Source: a virus
Direction: 5' to 3' (one strand)
DNA length: 40,822 nt
Virus record (IMG/VR): IMGVR_UViG_3300035199_000325
Span: 1-40,822 of that record
In this document: positions 15,784 through 19,453 of the stretch, in pieces
Layout: every line of letters begins with the position of its first letter
How positions within the stretch are numbered: position 1 is the first letter of the stretch
Translations under genes and position numbers: made by a program
Notes under the pieces: model-generated
The model's database searches: none
The model's input: the letters and a program-made list of their open reading frames with translations, nothing else
What the model was told of the DNA's origin: nothing

Positions 15784-16632
15784 TCAGCCTTTTCTGGCAT
15801 TCCAGATCAGCAGCACCTTGGCGTGGAAGATCACGTCCTCGAATTTGGCTGTCTGATTGGGGTATCTGTCGTTATCGGAAATTAGGTTGAAGTGTTCGGC
15901 ATCGAGCAGTTGCACGCGCTTAATGAACAGGTGCTTGTGCCAAGTCAGCACGTAGAGCCCTTCGCCAATGAACTCGTTCACACCCCTATCGACCATTACC
16001 GGATCCTTGTCGTTGATGGTCGGCGTCATGCTGTCGCCCCAGCCGGTGATCATCGCCAGGTGCTCGGGTGCGGAATAGTTCACTCCATGGGCGCGCAGGT
16101 GCGACTCATTGACCACTAGGTTGCGCACGGTCTCCACATAGTCACCGGGTAACTGGCCGGCGCCCATGGCAGCGCGAATGTCGAACTCGGGAATCAGTAG
16201 CTCGCCCTTGCGAGCCTGGTTGCGAGAGAAGTCGGCGGGAATGACGTTGCTGGGTTTCTCGACCGGCTCTGCGGTTACCGCCAAGAGACGATCTCTATCT
16301 TCAGAGGGGAGGGCCTTCCCGGCTTTTGTGGCGAGCATCGCCCTGACCATGTCGGCGGCAGATTTCACCTTTCCGGTCCCAGGGGCGGCCTCAATAGCCG
16401 TTTCGGCGGACTCGATCGCTTCAGCCGGGCCGTCGCCTTCGCCGCTTGAAAGCCATAAAGGATCAACGCCGCACACCTCTGCGATTTTCAGCAGATGAAC
16501 ACTCTGAAGGTTTTCCCCGCTCTCTAGCTGCGAGATCACCGGCTGACTTACGCCAACGCGCTCCGCCAGCTGCTTTTGCGTCAGCTGCGCGAACTTCCTT
16601 GCCTGCTTCATGCGGTCTTTGAGAGTACTCAT
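15784..16632 (-). CDS. CI-like phage repressor (HTH plus S24 autoprotease)
   Basis: 282 aa. The N-terminal HTH_3 domain (LTQKQLAERVGVSQPVISQL, about 17-36) binds operators. After a linker of about 80 residues comes a LexA/S24 peptidase domain with Ser201 (GWGDSMTP) and Lys238 (FIKRVQ); the likely cleavage site is Ala158-Gly159 (AMGAGQ). RecA-stimulated self-cleavage would trigger induction, as for lambda CI. The ATG at 16632 is preferred to an upstream in-frame codon. No ribosome site precedes it, and a candidate -10 (TATAGA, minus, 16647-16642) puts the start of transcription near the ATG, so the message may be leaderless, like lambda cI from P_RM. Confidence 0.93.
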   Translation of the reverse strand: MSTLKDRMKQARKFAQLTQKQLAERVGVSQPVISQLESGENLQSVHLLKIAEVCGVDPLWLSSGEGDGPAEAIESAETAIEAAPGTGKVKSAADMVRAMLATKAGKALPSEDRDRLLAVTAEPVEKPSNVIPADFSRNQARKGELLIPEFDIRAAMGAGQLPGDYVETVRNLVVNESHLRAHGVNYSAPEHLAMITGWGDSMTPTINDKDPVMVDRGVNEFIGEGLYVLTWHKHLFIKRVQLLDAEHFNLISDNDRYPNQTAKFEDVIFHAKVLLIWNARKG

Positions 16633-16644
16633 GCGCGCAAATCT

Positions 16645-16658
16645 ATAAGTGCGCTTAT
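16645..16658. promoter_or_regulatory. Operator O_R copy 3 (proximal to repressor gene)
   Basis: ATAAGT-GC-GCTTAT, one mismatch to the 14-bp palindrome. Overlaps the candidate maintenance promoter. Confidence 0.75.
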
Positions 16659-16662
16659 GGCC

Positions 16663-16691
16663 TTGCAAATAAGCCTCCTTATTCATAGGAT
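16663..16691 (+). promoter_or_regulatory. Putative rightward early promoter P_R
   Basis: TTGCAA (16663-16668), 17-base spacer, TAGGAT (16686-16691). One operator fills the spacer and another overlaps the +1 region. Drives the Cro-like gene. Confidence 0.65.
16669..16682. promoter_or_regulatory. Operator O_R copy 2
   Basis: ATAAGC-CT-CCTTAT, one mismatch; 24 bases from copy 3 and inside the P_R spacer. Confidence 0.75.
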
Positions 16692-16705: not shown

Positions 16706-16721
16706 TTTGAGGCATGAGCAC

Positions 16722-16931
16722 ATGAGCGCCATCCAAAAATTGGTCGACCACTTCGGCGGCCAGACCAAGACGGCCAAAGCGCTGGGAGTTTCCCAGGCGG
16801 CGGTTTCGTACTGGCTCGCCGGCATCCATTCCATCTCCGCAGAGCACGCATTCAAGGCCGAGGAAATCACTGGCGGCCTCGTAACTGCGAAGGAGCTGTG
16901 CGCCCGTGAAAAGCCGGAGCAGGCGGCTTAA
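16722..16931 (+). CDS. Cro-like regulator (YdaS-type HTH)
   Basis: 69 aa, almost all helix-turn-helix: LVDHFGGQTKTAKALGVSQA then AVSYWLAGIHSISAEHAFK. This is the pattern of YdaS/Cro family phage regulators. Divergent from the CI-like gene across the three operators, so it is expected to repress the maintenance promoter and favour lytic growth. ATG at 16722 is used; an earlier ATG (16714) is out of frame. Ends in an antisense overlap with a minus-strand ORF. Confidence 0.88.
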   Translation: MSAIQKLVDHFGGQTKTAKALGVSQAAVSYWLAGIHSISAEHAFKAEEITGGLVTAKELCAREKPEQAA

Positions 16932-17218: not shown

Positions 17219-17653
17219 ATGGAAGATTTCGAATGGACATTGCACCGGGAAGTGAAGGGGGAGGGTGGTACTGCCTTGGCCAAGCGGATGGGGGTCAACG
17301 AAACCCGTCTGCTGGACTGCGCTAACCCTAACCGGGAAAACCATCGGATGAGTCTGGAGTTGTTCGGCCAGGTTCTGACCCACCTGCCAGATGATTCCCG
17401 TCGCCGTGTACTGCGTGCCCTGCTGGCCCAGTTCAACTATGACCTGGTGGTTCGACCCGAGGCCGCCCAGGCCAACCCGCTCAAGGCCCTGCTCGACCTC
17501 GTCGCCGAGTCCGCCGATGTCACCCGCTCCATGCACGATGCCCTGGCTGATGGCCGCATCACCAGCTCCGAGAAGTTCACCATCCGCCGCGAGATCGGCG
17601 AAGTGCGCCACGCACTCGATGTCCTCGAGCAGTCCGTGGGCAAGGTGGCTTGA
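17219..17653 (+). CDS. CII-like phage regulatory protein (CP76 family)
   Basis: 144 aa. Residues 1-90 (WTLHREVKGEGGTALAKRMG, then ETRLLDCANPNRENHRMSL) match the phage CII/CP76 regulatory family; this is the usual position after cro. The C-terminal half (ALLDLVAESADVTRSMHDAL to VLEQSV) is helical and could oligomerise. The ATG at 17219 has GAGGAG upstream. It probably activates establishment of lysogeny. A GTG/ATG further upstream gives only Arg-rich noise. Confidence 0.85.
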   Translation: MEDFEWTLHREVKGEGGTALAKRMGVNETRLLDCANPNRENHRMSLELFGQVLTHLPDDSRRRVLRALLAQFNYDLVVRPEAAQANPLKALLDLVAESADVTRSMHDALADGRITSSEKFTIRREIGEVRHALDVLEQSVGKVA

Positions 17654-17654
17654 G

Positions 17655-18422
17655 ATGGCCGGCGACTGGATCAAGATGCGCACCGACCTGCTGACGAGTC
17701 CGAAAGTCATCCGCATGGCGTCCGCATTGAAAGCGGACAGGTTTCGGATCGTTGGTGGACTTCTGTCCGTCTGGAGTCTGTTTGATTCCCACTCTGAAGA
17801 CGGAAGCCTGTCCGGATATTCGCTCGAAGCGTTGGATGATCTGGCTGCGTGGTCGGGTTTTTCCGCCGCAATGGTCGACGTCGGTTGGTTGATCGATACC
17901 GGCGATTCGCTGCAGCTACCCCGCTTCGAAGCCCACAACGGCGCGTCTGCCAAGCGTCGGGCGCAGGATAAGGACCGCAAACAGAATGACCGCAAAACGT
18001 CCGCATCCGATGCGGACAAGAAGCGGACCAGAGAAGAGAAGAGAAGAGAAGAAGAAAACAACAACAGCGGTGGCGCGGGCGTCGATGCGCGGCAGCGTTT
18101 CGAGATGTTCGAGGAATGGCAGCCAGACGAACTGAGCCTGGCGCCCCAGCTGAAAACCATGGGCATCCAACAGACCCAGGTCACCCCCGAAGCCGTTGCC
18201 GAGTTCGTCTCGTACTGGATCACCCAGCACGTCGCTGACACCCAGAAGTCCTGGTGCCGGAAGCTGGTCCTAGCAATCAAGAACGCCGGTGTCCGCGCCG
18301 CCGCCGAACCCAAGCCCGCCCCGCGTCAAACCCGCCCAACCACTGCCAAGCACACCGGCCTGAATGGCCAAGACCTCATGTCCGGACTGGAGGCCAATCC
18401 CGATGGAACCTTCTCGCTCTAA
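17655..18422 (+). CDS. Replication initiator (DnaT-like C-terminal domain)
   Basis: 255 aa. N-terminal domain (1-105; MRTDLLTSPKVIRMASALKA, SGYSLEALDDLAAWSGF) resembles the winged-helix DNA-binding part of phage initiators. A highly charged linker (residues about 108-135, DADKKRTREEKRREEE) follows. The C-terminal domain (EEWQPDELSLAPQLKTMGIQ then QTQVTPEAVAEFVSYW..WCRKLVLAI) resembles DnaT, which helps load the helicase. Followed by a DnaC-like loader that overlaps it by 20 bases, the order seen in lambda O-P. The gene contains a candidate origin (17973-18061). Start is 1 base after the CII stop. Confidence 0.85.
   Translation: MAGDWIKMRTDLLTSPKVIRMASALKADRFRIVGGLLSVWSLFDSHSEDGSLSGYSLEALDDLAAWSGFSAAMVDVGWLIDTGDSLQLPRFEAHNGASAKRRAQDKDRKQNDRKTSASDADKKRTREEKRREEENNNSGGAGVDARQRFEMFEEWQPDELSLAPQLKTMGIQQTQVTPEAVAEFVSYWITQHVADTQKSWCRKLVLAIKNAGVRAAAEPKPAPRQTRPTTAKHTGLNGQDLMSGLEANPDGTFSL
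17973..18061 (+). other. Candidate origin of replication inside the initiator gene
   Basis: Five related boxes fall within 56 bases: GACCGCAAA at 17973 and 17988, GTCCGCAT at 17999, its inverse ATGCGGAC at 18010, and GCGGAC at 18023. The two central boxes form a perfect 8-bp inverted repeat around CCG. Immediately after them comes a purine-only stretch of GAGAA-type repeats (about 18030-18060). Iterons followed by an asymmetric purine tract inside the initiator gene is the layout of lambda ori within O. Low-complexity coding for the charged linker is the alternative. Confidence 0.5.
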
Positions 18423-19221
18423 CTCGCTGATCGAAAGCCTGGCTCGCCTGACGCAGTCAGCCGGCATCGTCGGCACCGAGCCGTCCCGCTGTGAGGCCCA
18501 CGGCGCGTTTATCGCCAGCCGTTTGCGTGATGGCCAACTCACTGGGTGCCCAGAGTGTTCCCGCGAACGTCAGGCCGTGCAGGAAGCCCAAGAGCGCGCC
18601 GAGCAGCAGCGCCAAGCTATCGCCGCCAGGCTGGAACGCTTGTTGGGGCAGGCCCTGATCCCGCCTCGGTTCAAGACCAAGACATTCGACAACTACCGGC
18701 CCCAAACCGACAAGCAGCAGATCGCCTTGTCGGCCTGCCGGAGCTACGCCGACCGCTTCGCCGAGAACCTGGAAGCTGGCCGATGCCTGATGCTGCTGGG
18801 CAAGGTCGGCAACGGCAAGACCCATCTGGCAGCGGCGGTGGCCGGGGCGGTGATCGATCAGTACCGCTGCAACGCCATGTACACCACGGTTTCCCGCGTC
18901 TGCCAGCAGGTCAAGGCCAGCTACTCGAAGGAGTCCACGCAGTCCGAGCGCGAGGCCTTGGACATCTTCCGTGCCCCGGATCTGCTGATTCTCGACGAGG
19001 TTGGCGCGAGCTACGGGACCGACTTCGAGCGGATGGTGATGTTCGAGGTGATCAACGCTCGTTACGAGGACGTGAAGCCCACCATCGTGATCTCCAACCT
19101 GGGCGCTGGTGCGTTGGTGGAGGCGCTGGGTGACCGCACCGTGGACCGGCTGCGCGAGGGCGGTGGTGTGGTGGTGGTGTTCGACTGGGACAGCGCCCGC
19201 CGGGAGGTCGCCAATGGCTGA
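18403..19221 (+). CDS. DnaC-like helicase loader ATPase
   Basis: 272 aa. N-terminal Cys cluster (C30EAHG, CPEC near 49-52) could bind zinc, as in DnaC relatives. The AAA+ core has Walker A GKVGNGKT (133-140) and Walker B LLILDE (194-199), with a sensor region (PTIVISNLGAGAL). It is predicted to load the host DnaB helicase onto the phage origin. The ATG at 18403 overlaps the initiator gene by 20 bases with GGAGG upstream; an earlier in-frame ATG at 18364 lacks one. The C-terminal end is coupled to the next gene. Confidence 0.9.
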   Translation: MEPSRSNSLIESLARLTQSAGIVGTEPSRCEAHGAFIASRLRDGQLTGCPECSRERQAVQEAQERAEQQRQAIAARLERLLGQALIPPRFKTKTFDNYRPQTDKQQIALSACRSYADRFAENLEAGRCLMLLGKVGNGKTHLAAAVAGAVIDQYRCNAMYTTVSRVCQQVKASYSKESTQSEREALDIFRAPDLLILDEVGASYGTDFERMVMFEVINARYEDVKPTIVISNLGAGALVEALGDRTVDRLREGGGVVVVFDWDSARREVANG

Positions 19222-19453
19222 GCAACTTCGCATCCGACCTGTGCGCGATTCATCGGGCGCAGTCTGTCCGCATCACTGGCGGACAAATTGCGGATACACC
19301 GTCATCCCGTGTCGCTCGTTTGCTGTCGGCTTCGGCAGTGGCCTGGCGCTGATCCGGAAGGGTGATGATGCCCCATTCGCCTACGTGTGCAGCGAACCCG
19401 AGGCCTATGCCCTGATTCAGGCCGACAAGGCCGCCAGCGGGGTATCGGTATGA
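19214..19453 (+). CDS. Small hypothetical protein, 79 aa
   Basis: Contains CPHHW...NCGYTVIPC, three Cys and two His suggestive of a metal site, then a beta-rich end with Gly (FAVGFGSGLALIRKGDDAPF). GGGAGG is 5 bases before ATG at 19214, inside the loader gene's end. Coupled by overlap to both neighbours in the replication operon. No recognised family. Confidence 0.75.
   Translation: MAEQLRIRPVRDSSGAVCPHHWRTNCGYTVIPCRSFAVGFGSGLALIRKGDDAPFAYVCSEPEAYALIQADKAASGVSV

Follow-up and report, generated by a model that had tools for sequence, protein, structure and literature searches.

In-gene box arrays and a purine tract in a phage replication initiator gene: a putative origin that may be exchanged together with its DNA-binding domain

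Genes and repeat arrays at the locus

The window, i.e., the whole stretch of DNA analyzed here, is a 40,822-base IMG/VR virus record. Profile searches placed a CI-like repressor gene on the minus strand at 15784-16686, a Cro-like gene at 16707-16928, and a CII-like gene at 17219-17653. These are followed on the plus strand by a replication initiator gene of 255 amino acids (17655-18422; phrog_2509, E 3.8e-65) and a DnaC-like helicase loader gene (18403-19221; phrog_50, E 4.5e-79; PF01695, E 1.6e-16), whose start overlaps the end of the initiator gene (18403 versus 18422). A small ORF and then an integrase lie 3' of the loader gene. The order CI-Cro-CII-initiator-loader was counted in favor of an origin within the initiator gene.

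The phrog_2509 profile (replication initiation protein) matches initiator residues 1-221, and the protein is laid out as an N-terminal winged-helix-like domain, a basic helix, a linker, and a DnaT-like C-terminal domain. The DnaT-like end, already proposed in the first-pass annotation of this DNA, is borne out by a PF17948 single-stranded DNA-binding domain at residues 149-216 (18099-18302, plus strand; E 9.7e-15, 54.5 bits against a cut-off of 25), by a Foldseek match to 4ou6 (TMt 0.80), and by sequence matches to solved DnaT. An AF2 model of residues 1-124 is winged-helix-like (mean pLDDT 83.8, pTM 0.71), with lower confidence in its long C-terminal helix. The joint best fold matches of this N-terminal model were the RepA_N structures 4pql, 5kbj, and 4pt7 (Z 5.7-5.8 over 81 residues), tied with CAP, and its Foldseek E value of 0.048 is weak; the fold searches with this domain gave no strong relative, which does not establish a new fold. 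At E values up to 0.1, a Pfam search of the initiator returned DnaT plus one weak unrelated match, and neither a lambda O family nor RepA_N (PF06970).

The first-pass annotation had taken CCGC as the repeat unit and reported five CCGC/GCGG boxes inside this gene. All five exist (CCGC at 17975, 17990, and 18001; GCGG at 18012 and 18023; five in 52 bases), as does the perfect 8-bp inverted repeat that it described, formed by GTCCGCAT (17999-18006) and ATGCGGAC (18010-18017); the 19-bp palindrome that these two make is the sole one of its pattern in the window. The repeat unit, however, had to be replaced by the 8-bp box GTCCGCAT, occurring on both strands at an exact 11-bp pitch. Site A (17698-17738) has boxes at 17698 (+, GTCCGAAA, weak), 17709 (+), 17720 (+), and 17731 (-). 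It lies 54 nt into the gene, within the coding sequence of the N-terminal domain, and is the second conserved array. Site B (17988-18028) has boxes at 17988 (+, GACCGCAA, weak), 17999 (+), 18010 (-), and 18021 (-), an order (++--) that is mirror-symmetric. The boxes of site C (19266-19295) are at 19266 (+), 19277 (-), and 19288 (-), within the small ORF that follows the loader gene. Further boxes at 17709-17738 and 19266-19284 had likewise been seen at first pass, and the third box of site C (19288-19295) is added here. Site C is lineage-specific: an array outside the gene was found in just 2 of the 101 representatives of the GTCCGC box class described below, namely the window and L001. In the latter, whose identity to the window is 88%, the boxes are degenerate, and this counts against the origin reading.

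Allowing up to one mismatch in GTCCGC per box, runs of three or more boxes at a pitch of exactly 11 bp are confined to sites A, B, and C within the 40.8 kb; in 20 rounds of single-base shuffling inside 200-bp blocks, the mean number of such runs was 0.00. Because 11 is not a multiple of three, a repeat in the protein cannot yield this pitch, and the boxes do fall in different codon phases. CCGC density and box counts were dropped in favor of spacing, which exceeds chance, because both were weak: 150 of ~40,770 overlapping 56-base segments of the window hold at least five CCGC/GCGG, which is not rare enough, and GTCCGCAT with at most one mismatch was found 48 times window-wide against 47.4 expected. 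K-mer over-representation across the whole window did not single out the box, and the cumulative GC skew of the window has no turning point near 18 kb, a result that neither helps nor refutes an origin there.

The purine-only stretch noticed at first pass is also present; this (AGAGA)n tract of 29 nt (18030-18058, plus strand) begins one base after the last site B box and is a candidate opening or helicase-loading element. In relatives the tract starts 1-2 nt past the last minus-strand box. Over positions +0 to +40, comprising the tract and the next bases, the AT content of 179 representatives is 0.61-0.62, versus 0.38-0.49 elsewhere, so that iterons in mid-gene are followed by an AT-richer tract, as in the layout of lambda O.

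Conservation of spacing and box class among relatives

In a first set of 81 loci (80 viral contigs plus the window), inverted trios of boxes at 11 bp were found in 75, compared with 3 loci at a pitch of 9, 2 at 13, and 30 at 30. The enlarged set added phage records, more viral contigs, and named bacterial genomes, and a redundancy filter reduced its 433 genes to 241 non-redundant representatives. A lack of conserved box spacing in relatives had been named beforehand as one of the findings that would refute an origin, and the spacing proved to be conserved: pitch-11 trios with a total mismatch of at most 4 occur in the first 510 nt of 159/241 representatives, and within the range compared (9-15 bp) each of the pitches 9, 10, and 12-15 gave trios in 0-9 of 241. 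Synonymous-codon shuffles of the same genes had pitch-11 trios in 1.45%; with at most 2 mismatches the figures were 89/241 versus 0.13%, the shuffle values being not exactly repeatable because their seeds were tied to Python's string hash. Synonymous-site conservation, also suggested at first pass as a check, was measured as codon identity between sequences sharing the same amino acid. In the 101 GTCCGC-class genes, constraint exceeding background marks two segments, codons 19-28 (site A) and codons 112-133 (site B and the tract); between them it is mostly absent, with an isolated column at codon 38. The Ser23 codon in this class is TCC in 71/71 serines. These are regularly spaced repeats inside an initiator gene that are kept at the DNA level, as is characteristic of an in-gene iteron origin.

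By box class the 241 representatives comprise 101 GTCCGC, 64 GTAACGC, 33 GTCACGC, one GTGGCGC, one GTGACGC, and 41 uncalled, the last being counted against the in-gene origin reading. GTAACGC, GTCACGC, and GTAGACG boxes sit in the same layout as GTCCGC. At least six of the uncalled representatives use GTAGACG at a pitch of ~12 bp, as judged by eye; separately, the GTAGACG loci L136, L152, L153, L167, L404, L412, L443, L468, and L474 have a helix of the kind SAKxRxxKxxRQARWR. Class analyses used 198 representatives, leaving out the 41 uncalled and the two singletons. Site B arrays were found in 100/101 GTCCGC, 59/64 GTAACGC, and 31/33 GTCACGC representatives, and site A arrays in 71/101, 34/64, and 28/33, respectively; by the criterion used, site A is thus absent from 30/101, 30/64, and 5/33, which again counts against the in-gene origin reading. 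Site A lies at gene nt 55 in most GTCCGC representatives, whereas for most GTAACGC and GTCACGC representatives its position is about nt 138-152. The tract was caught by pattern in 197 genes of these three classes, in codon phases 0, 2, and 1 in 156, 34, and 7 cases, and a GTGACGC gene with a phase 0 tract brings that phase to 157/198; these counts include provisional class calls, and 10 representatives lack a tract by the pattern used. Depending on phase, the tract is translated as TREEKRREE, PEKRREEK, or QRREEK. In 14/198 tract genes there is no box within 2 mismatches beside it.

The residues that share the most mutual information with box class are 105, 109, 101, and 112, all on the basic helix 97-116 (coded at 17943-18002, plus strand), although the codon of residue 112 overlaps a box; the candidate specificity residues in the window are R101 (17955), D105 (17967), and K109 (17979). 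K109 and D/E105 occur in 101/101 GTCCGC representatives, and T105 in 61/64 GTAACGC representatives. The codons checked, those of residues 100-109 (including 105 and 109), are synonymously diverse, so that selection there is on the protein. Path-disjoint pairs were compared on a tree that was built without the columns in question and is short and poorly supported. T105 tracks the GTAACGC class in 18.7 of 20 such pairs, and for K109 and GTCCGC the figure is 15.9 of 17, each with none opposite; supported branches alone leave three class-switching pairs. The best position outside the helix is residue 51 (net 6.9), which a site A box itself encodes (at about gene nt 149 in L083, L084, L086, and L088), and the origin sequence would there dictate the amino acid. 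Residue 51 is Asn in 33/64 GTAACGC-class and His in 24/33 GTCACGC-class proteins.

A rule based on residues 105 and 109 was applied to 44 held-out loci, which were fetched by the purine tract alone and were absent from the earlier set, with 20 loci present in training, plus near-duplicates, skipped. It was right in 31 of 36 predictions (GTCCGC 18/18, GTAACGC 8/9, GTCACGC 5/9) and made no prediction for 8/44; three of the five failures were GTAACGC loci with G105/Q109. In these sequence comparisons, box class follows residues 101, 105, and 109 of one basic helix.

Exchange of modules at the purine tract

Clusters of similar C-terminal parts mix representatives of several classes, and of the 665 pairs with similar C-terminal parts (a total that includes uncalled representatives), 264 are cross-class. 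The Klebsiella phages BUCT711 (L094, GTCCGC) and ST11-OXA245phi3.2 (L096, GTAACGC) share 99% of the C-terminal part versus 35% of the N-terminal domain (residues 1-93); their DNA begins to match again at nt 382/387, 3 nt short of the tract, and the upstream DNA is 92% identical over 632 nt. Another pair with different box classes, L076 and L420, has upstream DNA that is 74% identical over 739 nt, to 14 nt before the gene. Between the Rac prophages of K-12 and of E. coli strain 442/2, nt 1-496 of ydaU differ, and from nt 497 on the match is 92%. The N-terminal domain and its boxes are swapped together, with the breakpoint at the tract, and this layout of protein plus sites, swappable as a unit, recurs in hundreds of related phages.

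The exact tract 20-mer was found in at least 120 stretches of viral contigs. Among the matches listed, 70 carry the helix motif of the window's initiator family and 50 do not; 46 of those 50 have an ORF of at least 100 amino acids, with matches to phrog_9474 (22), phrog_2509 (12), and phrog_270 (12), counts that overlap. All three profiles are named replication initiation, and the phrog_2509 matches mean that some of the 50 belong to the window's initiator family and were missed by the motif pattern. The one non-motif stretch tested, L445, has a Lin1244 N-terminal domain. Still among the matches listed, 22 of the 45 non-motif stretches with enough flank have a 7-mer that occurs three or more times in the 110 nt preceding the tract, compared with 3/45 for a stretch of 110 nt after it. 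In L445, L446, L469, L472, L538, L545, and others, (AGAGA)n lies ~100-180 amino acids into other initiator-like ORFs whose N-terminal domains differ, and direct repeats often immediately precede it. Shortly downstream of the tract in L096, L088, L553, and others are C runs and then G runs, which could form a hairpin.

It is conceivable, at somewhat less than even odds, that many phage initiator genes with unrelated N-terminal domains have (AGAGA)n as a shared origin element. The tract would serve as a fixed joint at which a DNA-binding domain with its cognate iterons on the left is exchanged against helicase-recruiting C-terminal domains on the right, and as the site of strand opening or helicase loading whatever protein binds the iterons. 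If true, then together with the residue 101/105/109 code the origin specificity of such phages could become readable from protein sequence.

The candidate origin and its relation to known systems

We consider it very probable that the initiator uses sites A and B, within its own gene, as iteron arrays, that site B with the tract forms the core of a theta-type origin, that the N-terminal domain binds the boxes and the tract opens, and that the DnaT-like tail and the DnaC-like loader bring the helicase. The sequences and models establish the arrays, their spacing and conservation as DNA, the co-variation with helix residues, the exchange of cassettes, and the domain identities; from these we infer the replication start, box binding, opening, loading, and the roles of sites A and C. 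An 11-bp pitch places bound molecules on one face of the DNA helix. The N-terminal domain, with its winged-helix-like body and basic helix 97-116, would bind the 8-bp boxes such that successive initiator molecules lie on about the same helix face, and with the ++-- order two pairs could come together over the 19-bp palindrome in the middle. The strain of binding would melt the neighboring (AGAGA)n and AT-richer DNA. The DnaT-like domain would keep the exposed single strand bound, and the host DnaB helicase would be positioned by the adjoining loader. For site A, which lies 290 bp upstream of site B, the probable role is looping to or coupling with B to control initiation, or supplying extra binding sites.

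The boxes might instead bind the initiator mainly for autoregulation or copy-number control, as operator or by handcuffing, with the origin proper elsewhere. A roadblock at site A, so near the start of the gene, could act on transcription there, and site C lies outside the gene in the window lineage alone; site B, however, is nearly always present and coupled to the tract in most representatives, whereas A is often absent, and the same arrangement is an origin in lambda O and RepA_N. We regard such a mainly regulatory role as improbable. Another phage regulator (CI, Cro, or the upstream CII-like protein) might be what recognizes the boxes: genes for such proteins adjoin, and direct binding by the initiator is itself a prediction. 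Box class nevertheless follows the initiator helix residues, and it differs within both the L076/L420 and the L094/L096 pairs despite their related upstream DNA, making this explanation very unlikely.

A protein-level artifact, in which the purine runs and CCGC words stem from codon bias and a basic RREEKRREE linker, could draw on the charged, low-complexity character of the linker and on the single codon phase of the tract in most representatives (157/198). The tract nevertheless occurs in all three phases, the pitch and the box phases do not fit a codon repeat, and the synonymous shuffles (1.45%) and the invariant Ser23 TCC contradict it; we give it almost no credence.

The preferred reading, that of an in-gene origin at site B, supplies a base-resolution origin prediction for a large set of temperate phages, including epsilon15 and Rac-like prophages, and a protein-DNA specificity code that residue swaps could test. 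A reason for the origin staying in the gene also suggests itself: recombination would carry reader and sites along as one, crossing over at the purine tract. Helix and boxes could further help to sort prophages into compatibility groups.

The first-pass annotation called the origin lambda-like, and this holds for layout alone (iterons in the linker, then a purine tract). In lambda O/ori-lambda and the Stx phages P27 and 933W, as described in PMC7466680, iterons lie mid-gene between the DNA-binding and C-terminal parts, an AT-rich tract follows them, the inverted-repeat boxes are of similar size, and a loader gene adjoins, all as in the window. The window protein differs from lambda O in having no lambda O Pfam match, a DnaT-like C-terminal domain, and a DnaC-like loader rather than P, and its DNA in the 8-bp boxes, the 11-bp pitch, the second array A, and the (AGAGA)n tract. 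Repeats in an O-like gene of phage MD8 are described in PMC8508860; PMC2647930 and PMC5043065 also inform our interpretation. Within the open-licence PMC literature we found no paper on the present arrays, and older epsilon15 or oriJ work may have been missed.

The RepA_N plasmid replicons (pSK41, pTZ2162; and PLE RepA, PMC7145576) are at least as close in layout as lambda. According to PMC5703833, a RepA_N N-terminal domain of ~120 amino acids binds boxes central in its own gene, the linker is origin-encoded, the C-terminal domain is exchangeable, and in the hybrid pPR9 the N-terminal domain and origin are swapped together. The window has no RepA_N match in Pfam at E 0.1, a weak fold match, and other boxes and pitch. 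Its specificity signal lies on a basic helix after the winged helix, and its relatives are phages, mostly of Pseudomonadota, unlike RepA_N.

The Rac prophage of E. coli 442/2, through YdaU (L088:1228-2016), is a member of the GTAACGC class, and Rac has an active origin, oriJ, according to PMC3945230; PMC11014345 covers ydaU and contains an oriJ reference. The K-12 YdaU (L553:7120-7977) has a different N-terminal domain (DUF1376) and its own in-gene repeats, TGTTCAAACA, without boxes of the window type; the two YdaU proteins have the C-terminal half in common and unrelated N-terminal domains. An oriJ annotation at ydaU was sought in the K-12 record, which has no such feature.

The replication initiation protein of epsilon15 (Uetakevirus) is homologous to the window initiator (54% identity over 82%), and within the gene the positions of its arrays (nt 55 and 334) match those in the window. 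Its record has no annotated origin or iteron feature. It differs from the window in having no DnaC-like loader directly after the initiator and five boxes at site A. Across the complete epsilon15 genome, runs of three or more boxes are found nowhere but inside the initiator gene, five boxes at A (++---) and four at B (++--). The origin proposed here would, by analogy, work like those of lambda O or RepA_N, two families to which the initiator has no Pfam match.
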